Origin: Streptomyces sp. SM10
GTDB lineage: Bacteria > Actinomycetota > Actinomycetes > Streptomycetales > Streptomycetaceae
Assembly: GCF_002910915.1 (NCBI RefSeq)
Contig: NZ_NEUF01000048.1
Span: forward strand, 186,001-250,000
Direction: 5' to 3'
Length of the DNA: 64,000 nt
In this document: positions 16,699 to 40,004 of the stretch, in pieces
Numbering within the stretch: the stretch's first letter is position 1
Layout of the letters: each line of letters opens with the position of its first letter
The notes under the pieces: model-generated
Databases searched by the model: none
Told to the model about the DNA's origin: nothing
The model's input: only the letters and a program-made list of their open reading frames with translations
Made by a program: the position numbers and the translations under genes

Positions 16699-16700
16699 GT

Positions 16701-19687: not shown

Positions 19688-19695
19688 GGTGGACC

Positions 19696-21033: not shown

Positions 21034-21270
21034 GGTGATGCCTCCGGCAGATCGGTTTTCCGGCGTCGAGGGAACGTCGGAGGTCCCCTGTGGGCAGGGG
21101 GGTGGTGCGGTGTGGAGGTGTGCCGTCGGTTCGGCGGGTGGTGCTCTGTGCCTGCTCGGTGGAGCAGAAGGGTTTGCCTGTGACGCAGGCGCCCGGGCGC
21201 GCTGACACGTGGTCTGCGGGGACAGCCGGCGTAGATGAGATCTCTGCACGCCGGCCGCCCGGACGCCTTC

Positions 21271-21299
21271 AACGTATGGCACTGCGTGACAGGTGGCAA
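21271..21299 (-). promoter_or_regulatory. Candidate ccr promoter
   Basis: Reading the minus strand, TTGCCA (21299-21294) is followed after exactly 17 bases by TACGTT (21276-21271), a fair match to the principal sigma consensus. It would start transcription about 230 bases before the ccr GTG. Confidence 0.45.
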
Positions 21300-21312
21300 G
21301 GCACCCAGTGCC
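21300..21312. promoter_or_regulatory. Dyad abutting the ccr -35 box
   Basis: GGCAC-CCA-GTGCC, a perfect 5-base dyad with a 3-base spacer, lies immediately upstream of the candidate -35. Activator or repressor binding is a guess from position. Confidence 0.35.
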
Positions 21313-21397
21313 AACAATTTCTCTCAGTTGTCATCTCGTAGGCACGCATGAGCAACATCATGGGCCGTATGTCGCGTTGGTCCCTCTTTTGTGGCGG

Positions 21398-22183
21398 CTA
21401 CGGCGCGGTGCGGTACACGTACGGCGTCGTCGTGCTCAGCGCCGTGAAGCCGAGCCGCCGCAGGATCGGGGCCGACTGATCCGTCGCGTCGACCTGGAGG
21501 AAGCGGTAGCCGCGCTCGGCGGCGACGCGGGCGCGGTGGGCGATCAGGGCCCGGTAGATGCCCCTGCCGCGCCACCCGGGCGCCGTACCGCCGCCCCAGA
21601 GGCCTGCGAAGTCGGTGCCGGGGTGGAGCACCATCCGGGCCGAGCTCACGGGCTCGCCGTCCGCGAGGACCACGACCGCGAGGAAGGTGTCGTCGGTCAG
21701 GCGGGCCAGGGTCTGATGGCGCAGCCGTGAACCGTCGGTGCCGAAGGCCAGCTCGTGGGCCCGGACCATCAGCTCCACCCCCGCCGCGTCGGACACCGTA
21801 TGCGCTTCCGTGTCGGCCGGGAGTCCCGCTGTGGTCGGCAGCCCGGCGACCGGGGCGACGAACAGGGTCTCCGGTTCCTCCGCCGCGAAACCGGCGGCCA
21901 GGAGCCTCCTTCCCAGATCGGCGGGCCGGTCATGGGAGTACAGCTTCCACTCGAACTCCGCGTGCCCGAGGGAGGTGTAGTGCTCCACCTGCGCGGCGAT
22001 CGCCGCTTCGGCCCGCGCGGGACCGAGGTCCGGAGCCGTCCAGACGACCCCGTTCCAGTCGTCGGTGGAGCCGACCTGGCGGACGACGTCGAAATTGCGC
22101 TCGACCCGTACGCCGGGACCTTCGGGGCGGGCGTGTTCGCGCATCTCGTGGTCGAAGAGGGCCAGCATCTCGTCAGAGTCCAT
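21398..22183 (-). CDS. GNAT-family N-acetyltransferase
   Basis: A 261-residue protein with two GNAT-like halves. The C-terminal half carries the acetyl-CoA loop as TAPGWRGRGIYRALI and the following strand RFLQVDATDQSAPILRRLGF. The N-terminal half (about residues 1-120) contains YTSLGHAEFEWKLYSHDRP and resembles degenerate GNAT folds. The substrate is unknown. It lies upstream of ccr on the same strand but is separated by 364 bases that contain a promoter, so it is probably a separate unit. Confidence 0.8.
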   Translation of the reverse strand: MDSDEMLALFDHEMREHARPEGPGVRVERNFDVVRQVGSTDDWNGVVWTAPDLGPARAEAAIAAQVEHYTSLGHAEFEWKLYSHDRPADLGRRLLAAGFAAEEPETLFVAPVAGLPTTAGLPADTEAHTVSDAAGVELMVRAHELAFGTDGSRLRHQTLARLTDDTFLAVVVLADGEPVSSARMVLHPGTDFAGLWGGGTAPGWRGRGIYRALIAHRARVAAERGYRFLQVDATDQSAPILRRLGFTALSTTTPYVYRTAP

Positions 22184-22310
22184 GCGCGCATCCGAGCACG
22201 GACGCCACCGCCCCGACCACCGGGTTTCCCGCCGCCGGTGCGTCGACCCGGCCGTACGGGGCAGACGGAAGTGATCTTGGTGTGGTCAGAGGAACAGGGG
22301 TGGGTACGCG

Positions 22311-23063
22311 ATGGGCATACGGACGCGCAGAGGCGCCAGGAAGGGCCGTCGGGCCGTGTTCGACGTGCGGCGGACGGCGTTCGGTTTCGCGCTCCTCGCC
22401 GTGCTCGTCTGCGGCGTGGGGCTCGCGGTGCGCATGGCGCTGGAGAGCGCGGGACGGCATCCGGTGGTCGCCGCCCTCTCGGCCGCGGGGCTGGTTCTCG
22501 CCGTCGCGGTGCTCCTGCGTGAGCGCCGCAGCCGCAGGGCGGCGGGCCGGGCGGCCGAGGCGGCCGTCGAGACCGCGTACGAGGTCGTGGAGGCGACCCT
22601 GGAGGAGCTGCCGGCGCCCGACGGCCTCCCGGACCCCGAGCCGTCGCGGCCCGTCGACTACGCGGCCATGGATCCGTACGACTTCGAGGAGGCCGTGGCC
22701 GGGCTCTGCCGGCGCGACGGCTGTGCGGACGCCGAGGTCGTCGGGGGCGCCGGCGACCTCGGCGCGGACGTGGTGGCCACCACCCCGGACGGGCACCGTC
22801 TGATCGTGCAGTGCAAGAGGTACACGAGCGACAACAAGGTCGGCTCCCAGGACCTCCAGCGCTTCGGCGGCACCTGCTACGCCGTCCACGGGGCCGAGGT
22901 GGCCCTCGTCGTCACCACCGGGGAGTTCACCGAACCGGCCCTCGAGTACGCCGAACAGTGCGGCATCCTCTGCGTCGGTCTCGACGAGCTCACGGCGTGG
23001 AGCGAGGGCTCCGTGCCACCGCCCTGGTACGCGGGTGCGGACGTGCGGCCCGCCGAGGGCTGA
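22311..23063 (+). CDS. Membrane-anchored Mrr-like restriction endonuclease-fold protein
   Basis: A 250-residue protein. Two membrane segments (about residues 24-44 and 51-67) lead into a basic/alanine-rich linker and then a PD-(D/E)xK nuclease domain of the Mrr/type IV kind (about residues 120-225). Active-site candidates are the Glu in DFEEAVAGL, Asp in GAGDLGADVV and the Gln-x-Lys in LIVQCKRY. This resembles the widespread two-TM 'restriction endonuclease' proteins of actinomycetes, whose targets are unknown. No methylase is adjacent. It is divergent from the GNAT gene and convergent with the TetR gene. Confidence 0.75.
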   Translation: MGIRTRRGARKGRRAVFDVRRTAFGFALLAVLVCGVGLAVRMALESAGRHPVVAALSAAGLVLAVAVLLRERRSRRAAGRAAEAAVETAYEVVEATLEELPAPDGLPDPEPSRPVDYAAMDPYDFEEAVAGLCRRDGCADAEVVGGAGDLGADVVATTPDGHRLIVQCKRYTSDNKVGSQDLQRFGGTCYAVHGAEVALVVTTGEFTEPALEYAEQCGILCVGLDELTAWSEGSVPPPWYAGADVRPAEG

Positions 23064-23082
23064 GAGGGGTCCCTGGCCGGGC

Positions 23083-23898
23083 TCAGGTCTCCTTCAGGGC
23101 CTGCTGGATCGTCCGCATGACCTCGTCGAGCGGCGCGTCCGTACGGGCCACGGCGACCAGCACCTCGCCCTCCCTGGACACCGACGCCGCGGGCGCCCTC
23201 CCGGTGTCACCGCCCACGGTCCGCCCCGCTCCGATGCCCGTGCCGAAGGTCTCCCGCACGATCGCGAAGGCGTGGTCGAGCTGTGTCTCCACGTCGCCCT
23301 GGCCGTCCGCCCGCAGCCATCGCCGCAGCACGTGGTTGTGGGCGGTCACCACGGCGGACGCGGCCACCTCGGCCAGGAGTGGATCGTCGTTGCCGACGTG
23401 ATGGTCGCGCTCGTCGAAATGGCCCAGCAGGTAGCGCGTGAACAGCCGCTCGTAACGGGCCACCGAGGCGATCTCGGCCTCGCGGAGCGTGGGCACCTCA
23501 CGGGTGAGCTTGTAGCGGGCCACGGAGACCGCGGGCTTCGCCGCGTACATCTTCATGACCTCCTTGATGCCGCGGCACACCGTGTCGAGCGGGTGCTCGT
23601 GCGCGGGAGCGGCGTTCAGGACGGCCTCGGCCCTGACGAGGGTGTCGTCGTGGTCCGGGAAGATGGCCTCTTCCTTGGAGCGGAAGTGGCGGAAGAACGT
23701 GCGCCGGGCGACCCCGGCGGCACCGGCGATCTCGTCGACCGTCGTCGCCTCGTACCCCTTCGTGGCGAAGAGTTCCATCGCCGCCGCGGCCAGCTCGCGG
23801 CGCATCTTGAGCCGTTGGGCGGCGGCCCGGGTGCTCGCGGCACTCTCCGGGGCGTCCGTCGCGGCGGAGGAACGAGGGGACTTGGCGGGTTGGGACAT
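23083..23898 (-). CDS. TetR-family transcriptional regulator
   Basis: A 271-residue regulator with an N-terminal DNA-binding domain (AMELFATKGYEATTVDEIAG, then VARRTFFRHFRSKEEAIF) after a 30-residue Ser/Ala-rich leader, and a larger ligand domain. The start is taken at the ATG 23898; a second ATG at 23916 is possible and neither has a strong ribosome-binding site. A 9-base-arm palindrome lies just upstream. The neighbouring 3-hydroxyacyl-CoA dehydrogenase gene, transcribed toward it from the right, suggests a fatty-acid or CoA-ester role, which is only inference. Confidence 0.85.
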   Translation of the reverse strand: MSQPAKSPRSSAATDAPESAASTRAAAQRLKMRRELAAAAMELFATKGYEATTVDEIAGAAGVARRTFFRHFRSKEEAIFPDHDDTLVRAEAVLNAAPAHEHPLDTVCRGIKEVMKMYAAKPAVSVARYKLTREVPTLREAEIASVARYERLFTRYLLGHFDERDHHVGNDDPLLAEVAASAVVTAHNHVLRRWLRADGQGDVETQLDHAFAIVRETFGTGIGAGRTVGGDTGRAPAASVSREGEVLVAVARTDAPLDEVMRTIQQALKET

Positions 23899-23918
23899 GA
23901 GGTGAACGTAACCCATCG

Positions 23919-23940
23919 CCGCAGGGGAGTGCCCCTGCGG
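23919..23940. promoter_or_regulatory. Palindrome upstream of the TetR gene
   Basis: CCGCAGGGG-AGTG-CCCCTGCGG: perfect 9-base arms, 21 bases upstream of the TetR-family start. It is a plausible autoregulatory operator, or part of the leader. Confidence 0.4.
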
Positions 23941-23973
23941 GGGCGGATCACCCGAGGGGCCGAGCAGCCCGCC

Positions 23974-24005
23974 CCACCGGGCCCCCCGCCCGGGGGGCCC
24001 GGTGG
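23974..24005 (-). terminator. Terminator of the hydroxyacyl-CoA dehydrogenase gene
   Basis: A perfect 14-base stem (23974-23987 with 23992-24005) with a GCCC loop, starting 32 bases beyond the stop of the minus-strand dehydrogenase gene. Confidence 0.8.
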
Positions 24006-24037
24006 CGGGCGACGAGGCGCCGCCTGCCACCGGCACC

Positions 24038-25819
24038 TCAGCGGCGGGCATATTCGCGGAAGCCGCGTCCTGTCTTGCGGCCGAGGCAGCCCGCGGCCAC
24101 CAGGTGCTCGAGCAGCGGCGCCGGGGCGAGACCCGGGTCGCGGAACTCGCTGTGCAGGACCTTCTCGATGGCGAGCGAGACGTCCAGACCGACGACGTCC
24201 AGGAGTTCGAACGGCCCCATGGGGTAGCCGCCGCCGAGCTTCATCGCCGCGTCGATGTCGTCGAGCGTCGCGTAGTGCTCCTCGACCATCTTGATCGCGT
24301 TGTTGAGGTAGGGGAACAGCAGCGCGTTCACGATGAAGCCGGCCCGGTCGCCGCAGTCCACGGGGTGCTTGCGCACCTTGACGCAGACCTCGCGGACGGT
24401 GGCGTGCACGTCGTCGGCGGTCAGCACCGTGCGGACCACCTCGACCAGCTTCATCGCGGGCGCCGGGTTGAAGAAGTGCATCCCGATGACGTCCTCGGGG
24501 CGCGAGGTCACCCGTGCGACCGCCACGACCGGCAGCGACGACGTCGTGGTCGCGAGCACCGCACCCGGCTTGCAGACCTTGTCCAGGGTCGCGAAGAGCT
24601 CCCGCTTGACCTCCAGGTCCTCTGCGACCGCCTCGACCGCGAGATCGACGTCGGCGAAGGAGTCCAGCGTGCCCGCGGACGTGATCCGGGCGAGCGTCTC
24701 GTCCCGGGCCTCCTCCGTCAGCCGCCCCTTGGAGACCGAACGGCCCAGCGACTTGGCGATGCGGGCCTTGGCCGTGTCCGCCTTCTCCTGGCTGCGCGCG
24801 GCGAGGACCACGGAGTACCCGGCCTTCGCGAAGACCTCGGCGATGCCCGACGCCATCGTGCCCGAACCGGCCACGCCGACCGAGGAGACCGTGCGCCCGG
24901 CCACCGCGCCCGCGCTCGACGCGGGAGTCAGGGCGTCCGGCACCACGTCCTGGCCGCCGGGGGCGTCGTAGGTGTAGAAGCCGCGGCCGGCCTTGCGGCC
25001 GGTCAGCCCCGCCTCGCTCAACTGCCCGAGCACCGGGGCCGGGGCGTGCAGCCGGTCGTGGGACGCCGTGTACATGGCCTCCAGGACCGTGCGGGCGGTG
25101 TCGATGCCGATCAGGTCGAGCAGTGCCAGGGGACCCATCGGGAGCCCGCAGCCCAGCTTCATGGCGGCGTCGATGTCCTCACGGGAGGCGTAGTTCGCCT
25201 CGTACATCGCCGCGGCCTGGTTGAGGTAGCCGAACAGCAGGCCGTCCGCGACGAACCCCGGACGGTCGCCGACCGCGACCGGCTCCTTGCCGAGCTCGCG
25301 GGCGAGCCGGGTCACGCTCTCCACGGCCGGCGGGGCGGTGAGGACGGAGGAGACCACCTCGACGAGCTTCATCGCGGGGGCCGGGTTGAAGAAGTGCAGG
25401 CCGAGCACCCGCTCGGGGTGCCGCGACTCGGCGGCCAGCCGGGTCACCGACAGGGCGTTCGTGCCCGTCGCGAGGATCGCGGTGGGGGAGACCACCGCGT
25501 CCAGCTCGCGGAAGACCTGCTGCTTGACCTCGTACGTCTCGGGCACGACCTCGATGACCAGCTCCGCGTCGGCGGCGGCCTGCAGGTCGGAGAAGGTGCG
25601 GAACCGGGCGAGGACGTCGCGCCGCTCCTGCTCCGTGATGCGCTCACGGAGCACGGCACGTGCGGTGGAGGCCTCCAGGGAGGCGACGGCCTGACGGGCG
25701 GCGGCCTCGCTGACGTCGATGCCGATGACCTCGCGGCCGGCCCGGGCCAGGACCTCGGCGATGCCGGTTCCCATGGTGCCGAGGCCGACGACGGCAATGG
25801 TGGTGAGCGGGGTGTCCAT
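24038..25819 (-). CDS. Tandem-duplicated 3-hydroxyacyl-CoA dehydrogenase
   Basis: A 593-residue protein made of two complete 3-hydroxybutyryl-CoA dehydrogenase copies of about 290 residues each, where the ordinary enzyme has one. Both copies have the NAD-binding glycine loop (VVGLGTMGTGIAEV and VAGSGTMASGIAEV), the conserved LHFFNPAPAMKLVEVV or MHFFNPAPAMKLVEVV, and the C-terminal GLPMGPLALLD or GYPMGPFELLD segment. The first copy has GTNALSVTRLA and the second TTSSLPVVAVA at the Ser/Thr-rich substrate loop. It oxidises 3-hydroxyacyl-CoA in beta-oxidation or reduces acetoacetyl-CoA toward crotonyl-CoA, which would feed ccr. The ATG at 25819 follows GGAG. Confidence 0.88.
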   Translation of the reverse strand: MDTPLTTIAVVGLGTMGTGIAEVLARAGREVIGIDVSEAAARQAVASLEASTARAVLRERITEQERRDVLARFRTFSDLQAAADAELVIEVVPETYEVKQQVFRELDAVVSPTAILATGTNALSVTRLAAESRHPERVLGLHFFNPAPAMKLVEVVSSVLTAPPAVESVTRLARELGKEPVAVGDRPGFVADGLLFGYLNQAAAMYEANYASREDIDAAMKLGCGLPMGPLALLDLIGIDTARTVLEAMYTASHDRLHAPAPVLGQLSEAGLTGRKAGRGFYTYDAPGGQDVVPDALTPASSAGAVAGRTVSSVGVAGSGTMASGIAEVFAKAGYSVVLAARSQEKADTAKARIAKSLGRSVSKGRLTEEARDETLARITSAGTLDSFADVDLAVEAVAEDLEVKRELFATLDKVCKPGAVLATTTSSLPVVAVARVTSRPEDVIGMHFFNPAPAMKLVEVVRTVLTADDVHATVREVCVKVRKHPVDCGDRAGFIVNALLFPYLNNAIKMVEEHYATLDDIDAAMKLGGGYPMGPFELLDVVGLDVSLAIEKVLHSEFRDPGLAPAPLLEHLVAAGCLGRKTGRGFREYARR

Positions 25820-26167
25820 CACGGGACTCCAGGGTGAGTGACGACTGAAGAGGAGCACGGCGGCGCGCGGGGCCGAAATCACAACCGGCGCTCTGTGCGC
25901 GGACATTGCACGTCGTGGTGCACGGTCCCGGGTGCACGGGGCACACCGGGGAAAGAGGTGACGGGCTCTGTCCCGAGCCGCGTCTCACGAACTGCCGAAC
26001 CGACAAGCACTCCGGGTGGCTGCGTCACCAGGCCACCTGAGCCGGCGGGTGTGTGTCCCGCTCACCTGAGCTTAACCGGCGAGTAACGAGCGCGCCAGCC
26101 CTGGCCGACTGTGCGCTGGCACACAGTTCCGCGAACACGGTACGTGCGCGCGGATAAACTCACCGTC
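25820..26167. other. Divergent intergenic region
   Basis: About 350 bases between the dehydrogenase (minus) and HEAT-repeat (plus) genes. TGCAC-GTCGTG-GTGCA near 25913 is a small dyad, and GTGCACGG recurs. TAAACT at 26155-26160 is a good -10 only seven bases before the HEAT gene ATG. No coding signal. Confidence 0.4.
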
Positions 26168-26740
26168 ATGGATGAGGAGTTCCGCTCGCTGACGGACCGG
26201 CTCGGTGAAGAGGCGGGTGAGCCGGAGGCCTTCTCCCGGCTGCTCGTCACCGAGGACGACGAGGAACTGGCCGGGGTGCTCGTCGAGCGCGAACGCCCGC
26301 TGTGGGCCCGCGAGATCGCGGCGTTCCGGCTCGGCTGCCGGGGGGACCGCAGGGCCTTCGAGGCGCTGGTGCTCCTCCTCAACCACCGCGATCCCGAGCG
26401 CTGCGTCTCGGCCGCGCACGCCTTGAGGCTGCTGAACGACCCCCGCACCCCCCGGGCCGCGGCGGCGCTCGCCACCAACAGCCTGCGGACGGCCTACGCC
26501 CTGCACCCGGTACGCCTGCTCACGGCCCTGCGCGCGCCGGAGTCCGTACCCGCCCTGGTCAGCACCCTGCACCGGCTGCTGGTCCCCGGCGAGCCGCACT
26601 GGCGCGTCGCGCTGGCCTGCGTCGAGGGGCTGGGCAGCCTGGGCGACGGCAGGGCCAGGCCGGTCCTGGAGGCCGCGCTGCCCCACCCCCGACTCGGGCA
26701 GGCGGCGGCGGTGGCCCTCAGGCGGCTGCCGGCGGGGTGA
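26168..26740 (+). CDS. HEAT/PBS-lyase-repeat protein
   Basis: A 190-residue alpha-helical repeat protein. Successive helical pairs such as WAREIAAFRLGCRGDRRAFE, VSAAHALRLLNDPRT and WRVALACVEGLGSLGDGRAR match PBS-lyase HEAT-like repeats, which serve as protein-interaction scaffolds. The ATG at 26168 has no Shine-Dalgarno sequence, and a TAAACT -10 box ends seven bases upstream, so the message is probably leaderless. A longer frame from 26111 would start upstream of that -10. The partner is unknown. Confidence 0.75.
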   Translation: MDEEFRSLTDRLGEEAGEPEAFSRLLVTEDDEELAGVLVERERPLWAREIAAFRLGCRGDRRAFEALVLLLNHRDPERCVSAAHALRLLNDPRTPRAAAALATNSLRTAYALHPVRLLTALRAPESVPALVSTLHRLLVPGEPHWRVALACVEGLGSLGDGRARPVLEAALPHPRLGQAAAVALRRLPAG

Positions 26741-26941
26741 GGGAGGCTGAAGACCGCATCGCGTCCGCAGCAACGGTGCACGCGGCTCTGTCGTCCTACC
26801 CACCTCTCCCGGGCTCCGCGATGACCGCGCGCCGCACACCGGCGGAGCACCCGCAACGCCCGTTTCCCGTCCCGCAGGCAGACCGCAGCGGTCGGCGACC
26901 CATCACCGTCCGGCGGCCACCAGCGGCGCCAGGAAGGGGCT

Positions 26942-27884
<943 letters not shown>

Positions 27885-28040
27885 ACTGCCTATGTGGAGG
27901 CGCATAGGGACAGCCGTCTCTACACCGACCGGAGCTCGGTCCGCGAGCTCGAAGGGAGGCCTTATGGGCTCTTGCGAGCTCAGGCGCTGACTCCGCGTGA
28001 GTCGCTGGATTTTGTCGCGACGTTGCCTGGAGAGCAGAGA
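27885..28040 (+). pseudogene. C-terminal scrap of an XRE/DUF5753 regulator
   Basis: Translated in frame, this gives AYVEAHRDSRLYTDRSSVRE and then LLRAQALTPRESLDFVATL, which resembles the tail of the DUF5753 domain found behind the helix-turn-helix of Streptomyces XRE regulators. The DNA-binding part is gone. The join to the WD40 fragment is immediate, so a deletion probably fused the two. DUF5753 regulators usually precede a DUF397 gene, and one follows here. Confidence 0.6.
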
Positions 28041-28041
28041 A

Positions 28042-28293
28042 ATGACCACGATCGGAGTCGCGCACCGCTGGTTCAGGAACGGCTGTAGCAGTGAGGAAGG
28101 TGGGGAGTGCGCTGAAGTGACTCCGGCCTGGTACAAGTCCAGCTACAGCAGCGGTGAGGGTGGGGAGTGCGTTGAGGTAGCAGCCTGCCCCAGCACCATC
28201 CATGTCCGCGACTCGAAGGACGTGGCGCGTCCTCCCCTGGCCCTCGCTCCGACGGCCTGGACCGCGTTCGTCGGATTCGCCCGCGAGGTGTGA
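28042..28293 (+). CDS. DUF397 small protein with a duplicated N-terminal half
   Basis: An 83-residue protein. The canonical DUF397 core is WYKSSYSSGEGGECVEVAAC, then IHVRDSKD and a terminal WTAFVGFAREV. Before it stands a second diverged copy of the first half, WFRNGCSSEEGGECAEVTP. GGAGAG seven bases before the ATG at 28042 gives a good start. DUF397 proteins are small partners of XRE/DUF5753 regulators in Streptomyces development and antibiotic control. Here the cognate regulator survives only as a fragment directly upstream, so this copy is orphaned and may be decaying or still act with another regulator. Confidence 0.7.
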   Translation: MTTIGVAHRWFRNGCSSEEGGECAEVTPAWYKSSYSSGEGGECVEVAACPSTIHVRDSKDVARPPLALAPTAWTAFVGFAREV

Positions 28294-28328
28294 GACGGTC
28301 TGGGCGGCGCGTCGGCCTGCCCGGCCCC

Positions 28329-28979
28329 TCAGCCCCACGTGGTCAGCTCGGCCACGAAGTCGTCGTACGAGCGGTTCTTGCCCTGAGGCTTCGCGAGCAG
28401 CCCTCGCTCGTACGCGGTCTTCGCGATCAGCGCACCGTCGCTCTCGCGGAAGGTGGGCGAGCCGAGCTTGCTCTTCAGGGTCTCCTTGGGGTCCTTGAGC
28501 ATCCCCGTGTCGTTCCCGCGTAGTTGGGCCGGCACCTTCCAGCGCGGGCGGACGTGCGGAAACGCGCCAGGGAAGAGGAGTAACCATGCCTCCGACTCCC
28601 AGGCCGCCAAAGCGAGGGCCGCATCGCAGGGGCTCTGGCGCGCGAGCTCTTCGGACAGAGTCCTGCGTACGGTGCGGTAGCGGTGGTCCGTGAAGCCGTC
28701 CAGGTCTTCGTGGACGGCCAGGCCGACCAGCGGGCCGCGCTGCTGGAGCGCCTTACCCTTGGCCTTGCCGACCAGTGTGCCCACCGCTGTGGCGAGTTCG
28801 CGTCCGGTCTTCTTCTTCAGGCGCACCGGGTCGTTGATGCGCACGATCTTCGCCGAGCCCAGGTTCGGGTGGTGCTGGCGGATGATGGACGCCAGGATGT
28901 CGCAGTCGTTGGCGTCCTCACCCGCGAGCACGATGACGCCTCGGCCCTGGCGGGGGATGAGCGGTGCCCTGCGGCTCAC
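28329..28979 (-). CDS. TOPRIM-like DUF4276 protein, partner of AAA ATPase
   Basis: A 216-residue protein with a TOPRIM-like pattern: Glu21 in VLAGEDANDCD, then after a helical stretch Asp92 and Asp94 in HEDLDG, and the AWESEAWLL segment that I associate with DUF4276. TOPRIM folds cut or act on nucleic acid with metal held by these acids. The GTG start overlaps the upstream ATPase stop in GTGA, so the two are co-translated. This ATPase plus TOPRIM arrangement recalls OLD-type and PARIS-type defence pairs. A nuclease role in phage defence is inference. A basic region (RLKKKTGRE, GKAKGKALQQR) could bind nucleic acid. Confidence 0.7.
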   Translation of the reverse strand: MSRRAPLIPRQGRGVIVLAGEDANDCDILASIIRQHHPNLGSAKIVRINDPVRLKKKTGRELATAVGTLVGKAKGKALQQRGPLVGLAVHEDLDGFTDHRYRTVRRTLSEELARQSPCDAALALAAWESEAWLLLFPGAFPHVRPRWKVPAQLRGNDTGMLKDPKETLKSKLGSPTFRESDGALIAKTAYERGLLAKPQGKNRSYDDFVAELTTWG

Positions 28980-30199
28980 AGTTCACCGCCGGTGAGGTCG
29001 CCTCCGAGCACGCCGGAGAACCACAGCTCGCCGAGTGGTTGGTCGCCGGACTCCTCGACGATGTCGTGCACCTCGTCCGTGGTGAGTGCCGGGATGATCG
29101 AGGCCCCGTCCTCGTCACGGTCGCAGACGATGAACTCCTCGGGCTCCAACCGGTCCACCAGGGCGGGGGAGTGGGTGGCGACGAGGAACTGGCTGCGTGT
29201 GGAGGCCTCGCGTAGCCGTTCCACGATCAGTTCCAGGGCCTGGGGGTGCAGGCCGTGGTCGATTTCCTCGACGCAGGTGAGGGCCGGCGGGTCCGGGTCG
29301 TAGAGCATGGCGAGGAGGCCGAGCAGGCGGACGGTTCCGTACGAGGCGTCGGCGAGCGGGGTGGGCCGGCGCAGGCCTCGTTCGCGGAGGATGACGGTCA
29401 CCTGGTCGGCGGAGCCGCCGAGCCGCGCGAACTCGATGTCGTCGAGCTGGGGCAGCACGGTCCGGGCGTCAGTTACCAGGTCCTGCCAGGTCTCCTCGGC
29501 GGAGCTGAGGTAGTAGAGGAACTCCGCGAGGTTGTCGGCGTCGGGCGAGAGATCGTAGAAGCGGCTGCGGCGGAGGCGGGCAGGGAGCCGTGCGGCGGGT
29601 ACGTCGACGTCGAACACGCGGAACGTGGAAAGCTGCTGGGCGACCTTGGAGACCTCTTCGCCGCCGTCCGAACTGGCTAGGCGGGGAAGAGTGGAGAGAC
29701 CACTGCTCAGCCGCTGGATGCCGAAGCTTCCGCTGTCGGACTCCTTACCGGCCCGCTTGTCGACGACCTTGGCTTCCTCGCCGGAGACGGTGATACGACG
29801 ACCGCGTCCTTGGGTGCGCTTGAACTGGAAGCTTTCGATGCGGGACAGGCTGTATGCGTCATCGCTGCTGCGGAGCTTGCGGCGGCGGACGGTGAGGTCG
29901 TACTCGTCGGGCGCGTTCACGCTCGCGTGCGTCGTCCAGGTTGCCTTGAGACGGATCGTCATGGAGGTGGGTGGCTTGGGACCACCCCAGAACGCGACCT
30001 CGTCGAAGCCGCCGCGCGCGTCCAGGGCGGGCTGGAGGTCGGTCCGGATGATGTCCGAGAGCAGGTCGAAGACCTTCAGCAGGTTGGACTTGCCGACCCC
30101 GTTCGGCCCCACCAGGACGGTGAGGGGGCCGAGGGGGACGGTGACGTCGCGGAGACTGCGGAAGTTCTCCACATGGAGTTCGAGCAGACGGCCGGGCAT
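28976..30199 (-). CDS. AAA15/SMC-like ATPase, putative defence ATPase
   Basis: A 407-residue ABC/SMC-type ATPase of the AAA_15/AAA_21 class without membrane segments. It starts with LELHVENFRSLRDVTVPLGP and Walker A GPNGVGKS (residues 31-38). A signature-like segment DASYGTVRLLGLLAML replaces LSGGQ. Walker B is VEEIDHGLHP (E311, E312, D314), followed by the H-loop in LVATHSPALVDRL. This is the layout of RecF/OLD-like and defence ATPases such as AriA. The middle (about 90-230) is variable, as expected for a coiled-coil or sensor insert. Its stop overlaps the start of the TOPRIM-like gene. The pair is intact while everything around it is broken. Confidence 0.8.
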   Translation of the reverse strand: MPGRLLELHVENFRSLRDVTVPLGPLTVLVGPNGVGKSNLLKVFDLLSDIIRTDLQPALDARGGFDEVAFWGGPKPPTSMTIRLKATWTTHASVNAPDEYDLTVRRRKLRSSDDAYSLSRIESFQFKRTQGRGRRITVSGEEAKVVDKRAGKESDSGSFGIQRLSSGLSTLPRLASSDGGEEVSKVAQQLSTFRVFDVDVPAARLPARLRRSRFYDLSPDADNLAEFLYYLSSAEETWQDLVTDARTVLPQLDDIEFARLGGSADQVTVILRERGLRRPTPLADASYGTVRLLGLLAMLYDPDPPALTCVEEIDHGLHPQALELIVERLREASTRSQFLVATHSPALVDRLEPEEFIVCDRDEDGASIIPALTTDEVHDIVEESGDQPLGELWFSGVLGGDLTGGEL

Positions 30200-30502
30200 G
30201 GTCGCGAACCTATCGGGTGAGTGGGGCGGCGGTCATGTCGTTCGGGGACGGGCGCGCTTTCCTGGGTGAGGGCCGGCCCGGGTGGGGACCAGCGACCTGC
30301 GGCGATCTCGGCGTCCAGTCGGGCCTGAACGTGGGCGTGGGCGGCGCGCATCTCGGTTTCGCGGTCTGCCTTGTAGAAGAGTAGGCGGCCAGTGCCTCGA
30401 TGACGCCCTGCTCGCTGACGAGGACCGGGTATAGAAGAGGGGCCCGTGCGGCTCCGCCCGTTGAACCCGTCAGGGACTGCCGGCTTGCAAGCGAGTCCTC
30501 GT
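30200..30502 (-). pseudogene. Frameshifted remnant upstream of the ATPase gene
   Basis: No intact gene. On the minus strand one frame reads VLVSEQGVIEALAAY and, after a one-base shift near 30380, another reads ADRETEMRAAHAHVQARLDA continuing EIAAGRW. Together these look like one helical protein segment broken by a frameshift. I cannot name the family. The stretch also contains the promoter area of the ATPase gene. Confidence 0.35.
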
Positions 30503-30760
30503 TCACACGCACCACACGATCACGGTGTGGTCGAATGTCCCATGACCCTTCATGTTTGATGCCGGGTGCTGCCCCTTGGCCGTCGTGAAGCAGTGAATCA
30601 GGAAGGACCTCGGCAACCGCTCACCGACAACCTTGAGCAGGGCTTCGAGCGGACCGCGTACCGATGCCTCAGGGCTGCCCCCACCGGACAGCTTGACCTT
30701 GGACGCCCTGCCGAATTCAGCGACAGCAGTGACAAGCCATCCGTACAGCCCCTCTGACAT
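30503..30760 (-). pseudogene. Possible N-terminal remnant of a DNA methylase/restriction gene
   Basis: From an ATG at 30760 (GGGGGGC just upstream) the frame reads MSEGLYGWLVTAVAEFGRAS, then SPEASVRGPLEALLKVVGER. This resembles the first 50 residues of Eco57I/type ISP-like N-6 DNA methylases. After that the sequence (FTTAKGQHPASNMKG...) loses similarity and the frame closes at 85 residues, where the intact proteins are over 1000 residues. I rate it a truncated remnant; a short functional protein is possible but less likely. Confidence 0.4.
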
Positions 30761-30842
30761 GTGCCCCCCCACGTGTCGAGTCAGCTGCGGTGATCCCCCG
30801 CTACGCATGGTTCGCTGCAGGTGACAGGCTGTCAATGGTGCG

Positions 30843-31430
30843 TTACGAATTGCTGCCAGGCCACGTTGCCGGCGAGCTGAGAGGGCGTACGTACCGGACC
30901 TCGGGCACCCTGGTTCCACCGGCTTCGAACGCCTCCTCCGCACCGTCGGGCCGGAAGCCCGCCCGCTCGTAGAAGCGCCGGGCCCGCACGTTCTCCTTCA
31001 GCACCCAGAGCGCCATCTCGCCGAAGCCCTCGGCCGAGGCCCGGGAGTTCACCTCCGTGAGTAGCGCGCGCCCCGTCCCCGTGCCGGTCCGCGCCGGGTG
31101 GACGTAGAGCGCGTACAGCTCCCCGCTCCCGGGGCGCGCGCCCTCGTCGCGGCAGGGGCCGTAGCAGGCCCAGCCGGTCACCGCGGCGTCCGGCGTCTCC
31201 GCCACCAGGTTCAGCGGCCCGCCGCCCGCCGTGAGGTACGCGCGCCGGCGCTCGGTGTCCTCGTCGATGTCCATCGCGTCCAGATACCCCTGCGGGATCA
31301 CCCCGGCGTACGCCGCCCGCCAGCCGCGCACCCGGAGGTCCGCCACGGCGGCGCAGTCGTCGAGTGTCATGGCGCGTATACGCAGGCCGGGGGCGTACGC
31401 GAGGGTGGGGCGTGTCGTCACGCGGTCCAT
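30843..31430 (-). CDS. GNAT-family N-acetyltransferase
   Basis: A 195-residue GNAT protein. The acetyl-CoA binding segment is ELYALYVHPARTGTGTGRAL, followed by ALWVLKENVRARRFYERAGF, the typical motif B. The N-terminus (LRIRAMTLDDCAAVADLRVR) is the family's first strand and helix. The ATG at 31430 is the start. Substrates of this RimI-like branch range from protein N-termini to small amines; none can be chosen here. It is the first intact conserved gene after the decayed interval. Confidence 0.8.
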   Translation of the reverse strand: MDRVTTRPTLAYAPGLRIRAMTLDDCAAVADLRVRGWRAAYAGVIPQGYLDAMDIDEDTERRRAYLTAGGGPLNLVAETPDAAVTGWACYGPCRDEGARPGSGELYALYVHPARTGTGTGRALLTEVNSRASAEGFGEMALWVLKENVRARRFYERAGFRPDGAEEAFEAGGTRVPEVRYVRPLSSPATWPGSNS

Positions 31431-31467
31431 CCTGGCGTACGCCCCCGACGTGGGGCATCGTGATTTC

Positions 31468-33042
31468 TCAGCCGCGGAAGCCGAGCAGTCCGTGCAGCGT
31501 CTTGCCCTTCGTGCTCGCGCCCGCCTCGGTGGCCGCGGTCGCCTTCGGCTCCGGCAGGGCCGCGCAGACCGCGTCCGGCCCGCTGCCCGCGTCGGCGGGG
31601 AGCGTGCCGTCCGTCAGGTAGCGCACCAGGTGCTTGTCCAGGCAGTTGTTGCCGCTCAGCGTGATGCCGTGGTTCCCGCCGCCCTGCTCGACGACGAGGC
31701 CCGAGCCCTTGAGCTCGCGGCTCATGGTGACGCCGCCCTCGTACGGGGTGGCCGCGTCGTCGGTCGCCTGGAAGACCAGCGCGGGGCCGATCTCGTCGTT
31801 GGTGACCCGCAGGGGCTCCAGCGGCTCCACCGGCCAGGTGGCACAGGGGGCGTTGTACCAGGTGTTGTTCCATGCCATGAAGGGCGCCTTGGCGTGCGCC
31901 TCCCAGGTGTCGTTGCGCCAGGTGCTCCAGGTCCGGGGCCAGCCGGCGTCACGGCACTGCACGGCCGCGTAGACGGAGTACCCGTTGTCCCCGCTCTTGT
32001 CGACGGCGGCGAAGTCCTTGTACGCGGTGGCGAGCGCGTCCTCGTCCTCGTCGTTCACGTACGCCGCGAACGCCTCGGCCAGGCGGGGCCAGTAGCCGTC
32101 GTAGTAGCCGCCCGGCATGAAGGTGTCCTCGAGCTCGCCCGGCCCGACCTTGCCCCCCGCGGGGTGCTTCTTCACCGCGTCGCGCATCCCGTACCACGCG
32201 GCCTCCACCCCCGCGGGGTCGCTGCCCAGCTTGTAGGTGGCGTCGTTCTTCGCGACCCAGGCCATGAAGGCCTTGTGGCGGGCGTCGAAGGCGTGGTCCT
32301 GGGCGAGGTTGTCCTCGTACCAGACGCCGTCCGGGTCGACGACCGAGTCGAGCACCAGACGGCGTACGTGCTCGGGGAACAACTTGGCGTAGACCGCGCC
32401 GAGGTAGGTGCCGTAGGAGTAGCCGAAGTAGTTGATCTGCCGCGCCCCGAGGGCCTTCCGGATGACGTCGAGGTCCTTGGCGGCGCTGACGGTGTCCATG
32501 TACGGCAGCAGGTCGCCGTGCTTCTCGCCGCACGCGGCGGCGAAGGAGGCGGCGCGGTCGCGCGCGGTCCTCTCCGCCTCGTAGGAGTCCGGCACGGTGT
32601 CGGGGCGCACGGGCGCGAAGTACTTCGGCACGCAGTCCAGCGCGGGGCGGCTCTTCCCGACGCCGCGCGGGTCGAACCCGATCACGTCGTACTGGGCGGC
32701 GAGCTTCTTCGGCAGCGAGCCTGCCACGAACCCGGCCATGGAGAGCCCGCTGCCGCCGGGGCCACCGGGGTTGACCAGCAGCGGCCCCTGCGACGTCTTC
32801 GCCGTGTGCGGGATCCGGGAGAGGGCGAGGGTGACCGGCCTGCCCGACGGGTTGTCATGGTCGAGCGGTGCGGTGACCGTCGAGCACTGGAGCGTCGGGT
32901 ACGCCTTCGTCCCGCAGCCGGTCCACGTGAGCGGCGCGGCGGCGGGGGCGGTGGAGGGTGCGGACGCGGTGGAGGGCGCGGCGGTCACCAGACCCGCGAC
33001 CGTGGCGCCGACGGCAACCAGAATTCCTGCACGTTTCGTCAT
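31468..33042 (-). CDS. Secreted S33 alpha/beta-hydrolase peptidase (tripeptidyl aminopeptidase type)
   Basis: A 524-residue exported hydrolase related to Streptomyces Tap/SlpD/SlpE proteases, which release short peptides from protein N-termini outside the cell. It has a signal peptide without an obvious lipobox, then the oxyanion segment LLVNPGGPGGSG, the nucleophile elbow GYSYG with Ser209, and the C-terminal Asp and His of the triad in FQATDDAATPY and GGGNHGIT. The ATG at 33042 has GGGAGG just upstream; an in-frame ATG further up would spoil the signal peptide. Close paralogues act as esterases, so peptidase activity is likely but not certain. Confidence 0.85.
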   Translation of the reverse strand: MTKRAGILVAVGATVAGLVTAAPSTASAPSTAPAAAPLTWTGCGTKAYPTLQCSTVTAPLDHDNPSGRPVTLALSRIPHTAKTSQGPLLVNPGGPGGSGLSMAGFVAGSLPKKLAAQYDVIGFDPRGVGKSRPALDCVPKYFAPVRPDTVPDSYEAERTARDRAASFAAACGEKHGDLLPYMDTVSAAKDLDVIRKALGARQINYFGYSYGTYLGAVYAKLFPEHVRRLVLDSVVDPDGVWYEDNLAQDHAFDARHKAFMAWVAKNDATYKLGSDPAGVEAAWYGMRDAVKKHPAGGKVGPGELEDTFMPGGYYDGYWPRLAEAFAAYVNDEDEDALATAYKDFAAVDKSGDNGYSVYAAVQCRDAGWPRTWSTWRNDTWEAHAKAPFMAWNNTWYNAPCATWPVEPLEPLRVTNDEIGPALVFQATDDAATPYEGGVTMSRELKGSGLVVEQGGGNHGITLSGNNCLDKHLVRYLTDGTLPADAGSGPDAVCAALPEPKATAATEAGASTKGKTLHGLLGFRG

Positions 33043-33169
33043 GGGGCCTCCCGTGATGGGGCAACGCGGCTGTGGGTGGCACAGCTCCCGCGGCATGCTT
33101 CCCGGATCCGGGAGCCGGAGGACACGTGAGGCCGAGAGTTGACCCGTTCGGGCCGGGAGACGGATGCGG

Positions 33170-34201
33170 TCAGAGCAAGCTCAGCTGGGTGGGGCCCGGG
33201 GCGGGAGCCGTCGGCGTCTCGCGCGTGGTGCGGCGGGAGCCGCCCCGGTCGGCCGGGCCGATGCCGAACTCCGCGGCCAGTTCGTGCACCCGGCGGGTGA
33301 TGGACCGCTGGTACCAGGTCGGCGCGTACGCCCCGTCGGCGTACATCCGCTCGTACCGGTGCACCAGGTCGGGATGGTGCCGCGCGAGCCACTGCGTGAA
33401 CCACTCGCGGGCGCCGGGCCGCAGGTGCAGGACGAGCGGGGTCACCGACGTCGCCCCGGCGGCGGCGATGGCGCGGACCGTGGCGCGGAGCTGGTCGGGG
33501 TGGTCGCCGAGGAAGGGGATGACCGGGGCCATCAGCACTCCGCAGCCGATCCCGTTGTCCGCCATGGCCCGCACGACGTCGAGGCGGCGTTCGGGGGAGG
33601 GGGTGCCCGGTTCGACCGTTCGCCACAGCTCGGGGTCGGTGAAGCCGACGGAGACGCTGACGCCGACCTCGGTGACCTCGGCGGCCTGCCGCAGCAGGTC
33701 GAGGTCGCGGAGGATCAGGGTGCCCTTCGTGAGGATGGAGAACGGGTTCGCGTGGTCGCGCAGGGCGGCGATGATGCCGGGCATCAGCCGGTAGCGGCCC
33801 TCGGCGCGCTGGTAGCAGTCGACGTTCGTCCCCATCGCGATGTGCTGGCCCTGCCACTGGCGGGAGGCCAGATGGCGGCCCAGCAGTTCGGGGGCGTTGA
33901 CCTTGACGACGATCTGGGAGTCGAATCCCAGCCCGGTGTCCAGGTCCAGATAGCTGTGGGTCCTGCGCGCGAAGCAGTACACGCAGGCATGGCTGCATCC
34001 CCGGTACGGGTTCACGGTCCATTCGAACGGCATGCGGGAGGCCCCGGGCACCCGGTTCACGATCGAGCGGGCCCGGATCTCGTGGAAGGTGATCCCCCTG
34101 AATTCCGGCGTGTCGAAGGTGCGCGTGGTCACCGCGTCCGCGGCGAAGAGCGCGCCGTCACCCGTCTTCGTGGTGTTCTCTGCCAGATTGTCCCAGCGCA
34201 T
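33170..34201 (-). CDS. Rv2578c-type radical SAM protein
   Basis: A 343-residue radical SAM enzyme of the SPL-like family typified by mycobacterial Rv2578c. The iron-sulfur motif is CSHACVYC (Cys69, Cys73, Cys76) in NPYRGCSHACVYCFARRTH. Later strands include ILTKGTLILRDLDLL and VSVGFTDPELWRTVEPGTPS. The reaction is unknown; a DNA-repair-like role has been proposed for relatives because of similarity to spore photoproduct lyase. The ATG at 34201 follows GAGGAGG at good spacing, so the 13 residues before it are not used. Confidence 0.85.
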   Translation of the reverse strand: MRWDNLAENTTKTGDGALFAADAVTTRTFDTPEFRGITFHEIRARSIVNRVPGASRMPFEWTVNPYRGCSHACVYCFARRTHSYLDLDTGLGFDSQIVVKVNAPELLGRHLASRQWQGQHIAMGTNVDCYQRAEGRYRLMPGIIAALRDHANPFSILTKGTLILRDLDLLRQAAEVTEVGVSVSVGFTDPELWRTVEPGTPSPERRLDVVRAMADNGIGCGVLMAPVIPFLGDHPDQLRATVRAIAAAGATSVTPLVLHLRPGAREWFTQWLARHHPDLVHRYERMYADGAYAPTWYQRSITRRVHELAAEFGIGPADRGGSRRTTRETPTAPAPGPTQLSLL

Positions 34202-34349
34202 GAACGCCTCCTCGGTAGCACTCCGCAGAGAATAGAACATACGTTCCCTTGATCGTGCCCGGTGGGAAGCCGGACCCGATTTTGAGGGGCCGTGCCCGAG
34301 GTGGTTGGCTCAGCAGCACCCCGAACAACCGAGTGCTGGAGGAGCAGGC

Positions 34350-34793
34350 ATGGCGCAGGTCGAGGCCACGACGGAGCGGATCATCGCGGCAGACGCAGAG
34401 ACGGTGTTCGATGCGCTGGCCGACTACAAGGAGGTCCGGGGCAAGGTGCTGACCGGGCACTTCAGCGAGTACGAGGTGCGCGAGGGCGGGGACGGCGAAG
34501 GCACGCTCGTCCACTGGAAGCTCCAGGCCACGAGCAAGAGGGTCCGAGACTGCCTGCTCGAGGTCACCGAGCCCACCGACGGGCAGCTGGTCGAGAAGGA
34601 CCGCAACTCCACGATGGTCACCACCTGGACGGTCACCCCGGCGGGCGAGGGCAGCTCCAAGGCCGTCGTCACCACCGTCTGGAAGGGTGCGGGAGGCGTC
34701 GGCGGGTTCTTCGAGAAGACCTTCGCGCCCAAGGGTCTCGGGCGGATCTACGACGAACTGCTGCAGAACCTCGCCACCGAGGTCGAGAAGTAG
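34350..34793 (+). CDS. SRPBCC-fold small protein
   Basis: A 147-residue single-domain protein of the START/Bet v1-like SRPBCC superfamily (TTERIIAADAETVFDALADY at the N-terminus; FEKTFAPKGLGRIYDELLQN in the C-terminal helix). These proteins form a deep hydrophobic pocket for lipids or polyketide intermediates. GGAGGA before the ATG gives a good start. It is divergent from the radical SAM gene and separated from the MFS gene by a hairpin. Ligand unknown. Confidence 0.75.
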   Translation: MAQVEATTERIIAADAETVFDALADYKEVRGKVLTGHFSEYEVREGGDGEGTLVHWKLQATSKRVRDCLLEVTEPTDGQLVEKDRNSTMVTTWTVTPAGEGSSKAVVTTVWKGAGGVGGFFEKTFAPKGLGRIYDELLQNLATEVEK

Positions 34794-34822
34794 CCCTGCT
34801 CCTGCTGCTGTTGGCGTCACGG

Positions 34823-34861
34823 CCGGCCTCACCGGAACGGGTGGTTTTCCGGAGTGGCCGG
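34823..34861 (+). terminator. Hairpin after the SRPBCC gene
   Basis: Arms 34823-34836 and 34848-34861 pair at 12 of 14 positions around an 11-base loop, 30 bases after the SRPBCC stop. Confidence 0.45.
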
Positions 34862-34993
34862 TTGTGCGCCGTAGTGCCTCCCACCGGCGCATAAGCCCTC
34901 TGCGCGCGCCGTGCGTGCGCCTGGTCGCGTTTGCCCCGCCTTACCGCCTGATGCGAGAAATGGGCGGCGCAGCTGCGACGAGGGGAGCGTCAC

Positions 34994-37471
34994 GTGGTGG
35001 GTGGGATCACTCTGGTGAAGGACGAGCCGGAGGGCACAAAGTGCGGGCCGCCCGGGGTCTGGCCGTTGGCCGACGCCGGGGAGGCGCCCGCGACCGGTGC
35101 CGAGCCCGGGCCGCCCCCGCCACCGGGCACCGCGGGGGCCGCGGAGGAGATCAGCCCCCGCAGGGTCCGCCTGGTCTTCCTCGGCCTGATGCTCACCCTG
35201 CTGCTCGCGGCGCTGGACCAGATGATCGTGGCCACCGCGCTGCCGAAGATCGTCGGTGAGCTGCACGGCCTGGACAAGATGTCCTGGGCGGTCACCGCCT
35301 ACCTCCTCGCCTCCACGATCGGTCTGCCGATCTACGGCAAGCTCGGCGACCTCTTCGGCCGCAAGGGCGTCTTCCAGTTCGCGATCGTCGTCTTCGTCAT
35401 CGGCTCCGCCCTCGCCGGCTGGTCGCGCACCATGGACGAACTCATCGCCTTCCGGGCCGTCCAGGGCATCGGTGGCGGCGGCCTCATGATCGGCGTCCAG
35501 GCCATCATCGCCGACGTCGTCCCCTCCAGGGAGCGGGGCCGCTACATGGGCCTCATCGGGGCGGTCTTCGGCCTCGCCTCCGTCGCCGGGCCCCTCCTCG
35601 GCGGCTTCTTCACCGACCACGCCTCCTGGCGCTGGTGCTTCTACATCAACGTGCCGTTCGGCATCGTCACCCTCGCCGTCATCGCGCTCGTGCTCAAACT
35701 GCCCAAACCGTCCGTCCGCCCCCGCCTCGACGTACTGGGGGCGCTGCTGCTCGCCGCGGCGTCGACCTGCCTGGTCCTCCTCACCAGTTGGGGCGGTACG
35801 GAGTACGCCTGGGGGTCGCGCACGATCGTGGGGCTCGCCGCCGGTGCCGCCGCAACGGCCCTGCTCTTCCTCGTCGTCGAGCACCGGGCGGCCGAACCCA
35901 TCATCCCGCTGCGGCTGTTCCGGGACTCGGTCTTCAACGTCACCTCGCTGGTGGGCGCGGTCGTCGGGGTCGCGCTCTTCGGGGCCGCCAGCTACCTGCC
36001 GACCTACCTCCAGATGGTCGAGGGGGTGTCGGCCACCGAGTCCGGGCTGCTGATGCTGCCCATGATGGGCGGCATCGTCGTCGCCTCCGTCGTCTCCGGC
36101 CAACTCGTCTCGCGCACCGGCCGCTACCGCGTCTACCCGATCGTCGGCGGGGCCGTCTCGGCCGTCGGCATGTGGCTGCTCTCCCACCTGGACACCGGCA
36201 CCTCCGCGCTGGAGTACGGCCTCTGGCAGGCCGTACTGGGCATCGGGATCGGTCTGGTCATGTCCATCCTGGTGCTGGCCGTGCAGAACTCCGTCCGCCC
36301 CTCCGACCTCGGCACCGCCACCAGCGCACACAACTACTTCCGGCAGATCGGCGGCAGCGTGGGCGCCGCCGTTTTCGGCACGCTCTTCGCGGGCCGGCTC
36401 GCCGACGCGCTCGGGGTGCGGCTCCCCTCCGGCGCCGACCTGCCCGACGCGGAGTCGATCACCCCGCAGCTGGTCCACACCATGGAGCCCGCGCTGCGCG
36501 ACGCGTACATCCAGGCGTACGCCGACGCGATGCCGCGGATCTTCCTCTACCTCGTGCCGGTGCTTCTGCTCGGCCTGTTCCTCGCTTTCTTCCTCAAGGA
36601 GAAACCCCTGGTGTCCCACCCCACCTCCCCCACGGCTGCCGACCCGTCCGCGACGCAGTCCACGATCCCGACGGCCCGCATCGACACCGGTCCGCCGCAG
36701 CCCGGCCCGCTCTCCGGAGTGCTCGTGCGCGGATGCGTCCAGCACCCCGACGGCACGAAGGTGGCCAGAGCCGCCCTCACCCTCATCGACGGCCAGGGGC
36801 GGCAGGTGGGGCGGGGCGCGAGCGGTGACGACGGGGGTTACGCGCTCAGCGCGCCGGCCGCCGGCGCCTATGTGCTGATCGCCGCCGCGGGCGGGCACCA
36901 GCCGCAGGCCGTCAGCGTCACGGTCGGCGAGCGGCCGGTGGAGCTCGACGTGGTCCTGGGCGGCGCGGGACGGCTCGCGGGAGCGGTCCTCACACCCGAC
37001 GGTGCCCCCGTCCGCGACGCGGCGGTCACCCTCACCGACGTACGGGGCGAAGTCGTCGCGACGACCCGGACCGGGCGCGAGGGCGCCTACGTCATCAGTG
37101 AGCTGGTCGCCGGGGAGTACACCCTGGCGGCCAGCGCCCACGCCTTCCGGCCGGCCGCTCTCCCCGTCAGTGTGCAGGCCGCCCGGGAGACCAGGCAGGA
37201 CATCGAGCTGGCCGGCGGAGCGGTGCTGCGCGGCATCGTCCGCGCCCCCGGCGGCAGGGCCGTCGAGGACGCCAGGGTCACGCTCCTGGACGCGGCGGGC
37301 AACGTGGTCGACACGCTCACCACCGGCTCCGACGGGGCCTTCCGGTTCGTGGACCTCTCGACCGGCGAGTACACCGTCATCGCCGCCGGCTACCCGCCGG
37401 TCGCCACCGTGCTCCAGCTCCCCGGAGGGGGCAGGACCGAACGCGACCTCCAGCTGGGGCACGAGGACTGA
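34994..37471 (+). CDS. DHA2-type MFS exporter fused to three beta-sandwich repeats
   Basis: An 825-residue protein. Residues 1-60 are a soluble Pro/Gly-rich lead. About 60-545 form a 14-helix drug:H+ antiporter of the EmrB/QacA class, with the motif [11 protein letters not shown] after helix 2 and the DHA2 motif C region [16 protein letters not shown]-like. Residues about 573-825 are three consecutive carboxypeptidase-regulatory-like (transthyretin-like) repeats, for example [40 protein letters not shown] and the ends GEYTLAA and GEYTVIA. The antiporter normally ends near residue 550, so the tail is an extra module. Substrate unknown. GTG 34994 follows GAGGGGAGC. Confidence 0.85.
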
Positions 37472-37486
37472 GGGCGAAGCAGGGCG

Positions 37487-37517
37487 GCGGGGTGCGTGCG
37501 GGGCGCCCGCACCCCGC
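37487..37517. terminator. Hairpin between MFS gene and acyltransferase remnant
   Basis: Ten-base perfect arms (37487-37496 and 37508-37517) around an 11-base GC loop, between convergent reading frames. Confidence 0.6.
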
Positions 37518-37519
37518 TC

Positions 37520-37945: not shown

Positions 37946-37954
37946 CGCTCCCGG

Positions 37955-38972: not shown

Positions 38973-39974
<1,002 letters not shown>

Positions 39975-40004
39975 CCCACGAGCGGTCCGCCGCCGCCGGC
40001 CCCG

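Follow-up and report, generated by a model that had tools for sequence, protein, structure and literature searches.

An OLD-type ATPase and TOPRIM-like gene pair, a candidate defence module, in the remnant of a 33-kb Streptomyces island

When two intact, overlapping genes lie among the stubs of other genes, the question arises what the pair is, where it came from and how it may act now that its surroundings are gone. Such a pair, here called A and B, occupies positions 28329-30199 of the minus strand of the window, that is, the whole stretch of 64,000 nucleotides from Streptomyces sp. SM10 that was analysed. The earlier note on this DNA had given the position, the strand, a GTGA overlap and the intactness of both genes, all of which were found as it described them, and it had read the pair as an ATPase with a TOPRIM-like partner that it could not match to a named system.

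The two genes and their pairing

Judged by its sequence, gene A (28976-30199, minus strand, 407 aa) is an OLD/AAA_21-type ABC ATPase. It matches the Pfam family AAA_21 (E 1.7e-39) and, over profile positions 1-402 of 402, the PADLOC model HEC-01A (PDLC04183, E 1.4e-208). The motifs on which the ATPase reading had been built are both in place, Walker A (GPNGVGKS) at residues 31-38 and Walker B (CVEEIDHGLHP, of which VEEIDHGLHP had been reported) from residue 309, and a VATHSP motif begins at residue 340. Matches of A to SMC_N, RecN and RecF are weaker. A is also similar to MAD3 of the MADS system (NCBIfam model NF047739, E 3.2e-35), but at 122.1 bits this match is below the curated cut-off of 420. 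The predicted structure of A was poor (pLDDT 57.6), too low for use.

Gene B (28329-28979, minus strand, 216 aa) codes for a TOPRIM-like protein and putative two-metal nuclease. It matches the PADLOC model HEC-01B (PDLC04207, E 3.1e-89) over profile positions 1-200 of 203, and in a PADLOC scan at E<=1 all of its matches were to two HEC-01B models and one PDC-M25B model. The PADLOC library includes AriB models, and none of them matched B at E<=1, in which B differs from the nuclease of PARIS. Since the adjacent A and B match the HEC-01A and HEC-01B models end to end, the pair belongs to a named candidate, HEC-01 ('Hma-embedded candidate' 01 of PADLOC), and the statement that it matches no named system did not hold; the family is defined here by these profiles and not by the context that gave it its name. 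Among the matches listed by a full-text literature search there was no relevant paper naming HEC-01.

The predicted structure of B, modelled from 38 sequences, was confident (pLDDT 89.7, pTM 0.86). In VIA-align ranks 1-4 (Z 6.8-7.6) were all C-terminal TOPRIM regions of OLD proteins, the best being 6nk8 (Z 7.6, rmsd 4.4, 162 aligned), followed by 6njx (Z 6.9), 6njv (6.8) and 6njw (6.8), and lower rows included GajA (8j4t, Z 6.2) and the T. scotoductus OLD protein (6p74, Z 5.8). Unrelated folds scored close to the OLD rows, namely the AGO2 MID domain (Z 6.8), designed cages (6.6) and lumazine synthase (6.5), and therefore the fold match alone is not decisive. Foldseek found nothing for the model in the PDB at E<=0.001, a search by sequence among the solved structures of the PDB gave no match to B, and comparison of the model with a viral fold library gave nothing at E<=0.001; third-ranked in that library was a RloB-like phage protein (TM 0.43), which is a lead only. 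The TOPRIM-like reading of B is thus favoured by the confident model, the four top rows and the invariant acidic residues described below, and weakened by the unrelated folds and the empty Foldseek result; on the model, a TOPRIM fold is supported, not proven.

Identical in all 42 aligned B proteins, which are those of the window and its relatives with four remote ones among them, were E21, D25, H90, D92, D94, E128, E130, W132, K165, E179 and D181; E21, D92 and D94, which had been singled out before, are thus both present and invariant. The metal and catalytic residues of the B. pseudomallei OLD protein are E400, E404, D455, D457, T506, E508 and K562 (PMC6755086), and the chain order of E21, D25, D92, D94, E128/E130 and K165 of B agrees with this two-metal set, with two positions differing in kind and with the equivalences D25-E404, E128/E130-T506/E508 and K165-K562 resting on order along the chain. 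As for the DUF4276 label that B had been given, it stood in profile comparison and not in Pfam. No Pfam family matched B at E<=0.1, PF14103 (DUF4276) included, and PF14103 had no match in genome G000 at 0.001 either. The B profile matched an alignment of ten Pfam DUF4276 proteins (14 matches found, ten aligned) with a probability of 95.1 and E 3.4e-8 over 176 columns, the ExExW of B being aligned to theirs, and 27 unrelated alignments gave at most a probability of 11 and E 0.0028. By profile, then, B is a remote relative of the DUF4276 proteins, below Pfam detection. A full-text literature search for the word DUF4276 returned no paper.

Of 42 loci, those of the window and of 41 relatives, 38 carry both genes intact and side by side, always as separate genes; the exceptions are L040, L058, L059 and L060. 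The stop of A and the start of B overlap by four bases in 35 of these 38 loci, as in the GTGA of the window (28976-28979, minus strand), and by one base in the other three; the start codon of B was taken as the one nearest to the stop of A, so that this count favours overlaps. The 41 relatives were all found by a single pattern-based scan of named genomes and all belong to Streptomyces, so that they are not independent. Pairwise distances of A and of B were correlated (r 0.838; 0 of 2000 permutations as high), which together with the 38 loci strongly supports that the two genes occur together. When the window was compared with S. silvae, dN/dS was 0.030 for A (5 nonsynonymous and 52 synonymous changes) and 0.147 for B (17 and 34), values that also span the time before the deletions described below; both genes have been under purifying selection. 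The conserved coupling of A and B is strongly supported, and the full-length PADLOC matches, the number of intact adjacent pairs and the dN/dS values show that the pairing is not a product of chance. Of 199 Streptomyces genomes 17 had a B match, and so did 10 of 394 across the class, of which four belong to another family, the genome of the window and several fragments being counted in both figures; the match in G559 has one in-frame TGA. No relative of B was found in the viral, plasmid and phage collections.

The chromosomal site and its history

The origin of the locus can be followed by comparing the same chromosomal site in relatives. In at least five of them (L077, L080, L081, L088 and L086) a HEAT-repeat gene is followed by a GNAT gene within 24-203 bases, and there is no insert. 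In the window the HEAT-repeat gene runs to about 26743 and the GNAT gene starts at 30890, and the whole 4.1-kb insert between them (26744-30889) is what these relatives do not have. NCBIfam calls the HEAT-repeat protein (26111-26740) adenylosuccinate lyase (E 9.9e-97), apparently because the model bears a wrong name. Both flanks of the site in the window (13051-26740 at 91.4% and 30617-37967 at 88.7%) are colinear with S. silvae (G597, contig 192), where they enclose an island of about 33 kb that contains an ISP-type restriction-modification gene, a kinase, SNF2, a methylase, A, B, an HTH gene, cargo, a DruE-like helicase and UvrD.

Both ends of this island are still recognisable in the window. 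One of them is represented by 48 codons from the start of the ISP-type restriction-modification gene (30617-30760, minus strand; PADLOC REase_MTase_IIG; 89.6% to G597 8551-11859), and this stub is the source of what had earlier been noticed as a possible restriction-methylase remnant; the other is represented by the final 18 codons of the UvrD helicase (26906-26959, minus strand; 88.9% to residues 737-754 of G597 39067-41331; by blastn 26880-26960 at 86.7%). Upstream of A there are the final 46 codons of the giant N6-methylase that is linked to SNF2 (30241-30378, minus strand; 93.5% by tblastn to residues 1662-1707 of the L022 methylase) and an internal piece, about residues 1236-1313, of a related giant methylase (30381-30614, minus strand; 65.6% to L024, 69.2% to L025 and 42.4% to L022), and on the other side lie the C-terminal 50 codons of an HTH/DUF5753 regulator (27882-28034, plus strand; 64.7% to G597 24076-24897; named from the Pfam match of its homologue). 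The DUF397 gene that adjoins B, as it does in L022, is nearly complete (28069-28290, plus strand; PF04149 E 4.5e-20; 73% to L022); it aligns to residues 9-82 of the 82 of its S. silvae counterpart and, to go by this alignment, may be whole. The description of everything around the pair as broken therefore fits the stubs of the UvrD, HTH, methylase and ISP-type genes and may not fit DUF397. A truncated Ser/Thr kinase fragment (26951-27748, plus strand) has 35% identity to the kinase of the S. silvae island, does not clearly belong to that island and is apparently of other origin; a WD40-like tail, read by eye, lies behind it in another frame (27748-27990).

The A-B block (27880-30379, 2.5 kb) has 90.2% identity to S. 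silvae, as the flanks do, and so the pair was probably inherited together with the chromosomal site; in the A tree, the window and S. silvae are grouped (100/99), and L023-L025 adjoin (97/90). What the window holds at this site is a deletion remnant: stubs of both island ends are left, and A-B is intact between them. The operon part upstream of A-B is deleted, no sigma-70-like promoter was found in 30150-30960, and the window's own genome gave no methylase match at E 1e-20 and no DruE-like helicase match at E 1e-50. There was no tRNA within the window, and no direct repeat that could be read as an attachment site was found at the insert flanks. A different remnant is present at the same site in G052 (L144 4054-9973), where A is gone, B is broken, the HTH regulator is intact and some cargo is left, which means that the pair can be lost. 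The site history, as far as island material is concerned, is a comparison of three strains, those of the window, S. silvae and G052.

Neighbours of the pair in other genomes

An SNF2 helicase and a giant methylase lie directly upstream of A-B in L022, L024-L030 and L056, and a few kb upstream in L035. In PADLOC, the representative methylase matches REase_MTase_IIG (E 3.7e-296) and DrmMI (3.8e-47), and the representative SNF2 protein matches DrmD (E 4.7e-79); the methylase of this backbone matches N6-methylase families. Downstream there is a helicase of 2305 aa (DruE3, E 4.5e-89, with a weaker DrmA match), and then a UvrD helicase. The backbone, which is conserved in Streptomyces, consists of an SNF2 helicase, an N6-methylase of about 1750 aa, a DruE/DrmA-like helicase of about 2300 aa and UvrD, with no DUF499, and it is possibly an undescribed DISARM/Druantia-like system. 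Examples are L030:426-8738, L164:11135-20000, L166:2175-11332 and L031:11986-18903. A second ATPase family was seen in the cargo downstream of A-B (L056:16644-17783 and L026:17516-18643), the L056 protein having DUF3696 and a PADLOC match to NsnB (E 1.9e-116).

At least one of SNF2, methylase, DruE-like helicase and UvrD was found in 19 of the 41 loci and in none of 19 control stretches (Fisher 1.2e-4), the positions of the control stretches being round numbers chosen by hand; this value and a second Fisher value of 3.4e-10 ignore shared ancestry. Among the 19 positive loci, L023 and L039 have UvrD only and L037 has a methylase piece only. Restriction-type neighbours were absent in the other 22 loci, which speaks for a pair that can at least persist alone; enrichment near defence genes is supported by the 19 loci, with the 22 speaking against it. 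Neighbours of the backbone-less loci were scanned with PADLOC for 54 of 150 candidate genes, picked by hand for being nearest or larger and spread over 21 of the 22 loci; the control scan took 54 of 113 genes and covered 18 of the 19 stretches. The first set matched 86 families and the second 34. The 25 control matches listed out of the 34 were to kinase-type models, and the 25 listed out of the 86 comprised kinase-type models, two matches each to mad2 and mad3, and one each to HEC-01A, RecD-like, LeoA and PDC-S68.

Methylase and DruE-like helicase matches fell in the same 8 of 61 genomes (G000-G060) when the methylase query was run at 1e-20 and the DruE-like query, with its first 838 aa only, at 1e-50, on the assumption that the methylase search sample of 150 included all of G000-G060. 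The two genes adjoin in six of the eight (G018, G033, G040, G055, G057 and G058), and none of these six had a B match in a single-sequence search, which could miss remote pairs. Therefore, to judge from this arrangement, the methylase and the DruE-like helicase seem to have been separated by insertion of A-B and other cargo. G017 has the two on separate contigs, B sharing that of the helicase; in G030 they are about 20 kb apart, and remains of a decayed A-B are located about 1.6 kb away from the methylase. The G030 locus (L145 9290-19349) mirrors the window in that SNF2 and the methylase are nearly full length and A-B is decayed. The slot between the methylase and the DruE-like helicase is occupied in G559 (L155 241-19900) by a much more remote pair, with 45% identity for A and about 40% for B, which suggests that different HEC-01 lineages reuse it. 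When loci were labelled 'MTaseLinked', this label had to change 6 times on the A tree and 7 times on the B tree, so that the methylase link has been gained or lost several times.

Whether this backbone is the Hma system to which the name HEC-01 refers could be judged from DUF499, which had no match in 15 of 15 genomes examined. A Hma/DUF499 system was rejected as the parent on this ground; the backbone is not the DUF499 system that is equated with Hma in PMC12839542. Moreover, in the 2021 paper naming Hma the methylase is m5C (PMC8565338), whereas the backbone methylase here is of the N6 type. Several Hma-embedded candidates, HEC-06 included, are reported to have antiviral activity (PMC12988326); the genes that are embedded in clusters of Hma, which stands for helicase, methylase and ATPase, have been attributed to Payne and colleagues (PMC11411939), whose 2024 preprint is cited for guilt-by-embedding (PMC12255303).

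How the pair may act

A sensor-type ATPase, a TOPRIM-like protein coupled to it and an embedding among a methylase and helicases make up an anatomy that fits a PARIS-like scheme. PARIS also consists of two genes, for an ABC ATPase and a TOPRIM nuclease; AriA senses and sequesters AriB, which phage proteins such as Ocr release, leading to tRNA cleavage (PMC12409363). AriB has a two-metal site (PMC12409363), and PARIS has been discussed as a possible further OLD class (PMC10568477). OLD-ABC and TOPRIM modules adjoin BREX-type loci, and the back-up effectors of BREX and of DUF499 BREX-related systems are the same kind of module beside an SNF2 helicase and an N6-methylase (PMC12839542), but the backbone here has a DruE/DrmA-like helicase and UvrD and has no DUF499.

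From this anatomy we think it somewhat probable that A-B is a two-gene phage-defence module of an OLD-type ATPase and a TOPRIM nuclease, that it serves as a PARIS-like back-up in a restriction-type system, and that it has been orphaned in this genome. By analogy, A would sense infection through ATP-dependent assembly and would hold B in check, and the trigger would most plausibly be phage interference with the adjacent restriction-type system. Once triggered, A would free or activate B, and B, as a putative two-metal TOPRIM nuclease, would cut nucleic acid, either tRNA or DNA, and abort the infection in the way described for AriA/AriB. Within the parent island, where the pair is between the giant N6-methylase and the DruE-like helicase, it would serve as a back-up; here its former island neighbours have been deleted, and A-B, left alone, would continue to be expressed. 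A more specific version, according to which the backbone without DUF499 is an undescribed Streptomyces restriction-type system and A-B is its dedicated guard, firing when the system is blocked or lost and kept here as a working module, we consider quite doubtful.

The same pair could also be a split OLD-like DNA nuclease, that is, A and B in a single constitutive complex which would itself cut phage DNA in the manner of Gabija or OLD, whatever its neighbours. This is possible, though we think it unlikely. The residue order of B, which is that of the Class 2 OLD two-metal set, and the best structural rows are those of DNA-cutting OLD proteins, and the 22 loci without restriction-type neighbours agree with a pair that works or persists alone. 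However, some of the loci have the pair embedded between the methylase and the DruE-like helicase, and PARIS, the closest described two-gene split system, cuts tRNA (PMC12409363). In OLD and GajA, ATPase and TOPRIM are parts of one polypeptide and here they are separate genes; in the window, the gene after B is DUF397 on the other strand and not a GajB-type helicase as in Gabija. That A-B is a housekeeping DNA-repair factor, a RecF/SMC-like ATPase with a TOPRIM partner, is highly improbable: the weaker SMC_N, RecN and RecF matches of A point that way, but the HEC-01 profile matches are far stronger, the pair is present in few and scattered genomes, and there are sites without the insert as well as broken copies.

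A different matter, compatible with either mechanism, is whether this particular copy works at all, and it may be an unexpressed and functionless bystander of a dying island that has not yet decayed, although we would not call this probable. Apart from the nearly complete DUF397 gene, nothing but stubs was found here of the other island genes, the promoter search upstream of the pair, where the operon is deleted, was negative, and at the same site in G052 A has been lost and B is broken. Against this, both reading frames are fully open, the dN/dS values to S. silvae are low even though pre-deletion time is included in them, and the conserved acidic and lysine residues of B are intact. We therefore retain, at the strength given above, the reading of A-B as a PARIS-like back-up module orphaned in this genome.

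The pair belongs to a candidate, HEC-01, that already had a name; what is new is the history of the site and the exact embedding of the pair. HEC-01, which the literature and profile searches found only in a profile database, is now anchored in a natural experiment at one chromosomal site that is present in four states: empty in at least five relatives, with the 33-kb island in S. silvae, with A-B among stubs in the window, and in G052 with A lost and only a broken B. The pair, lodged between genes that adjoin each other in six other genomes, presents the very pattern behind guilt-by-embedding, and the states of the site make it testable whether an ATPase-TOPRIM pair works without its restriction-type host system and whether the pair guards that host.
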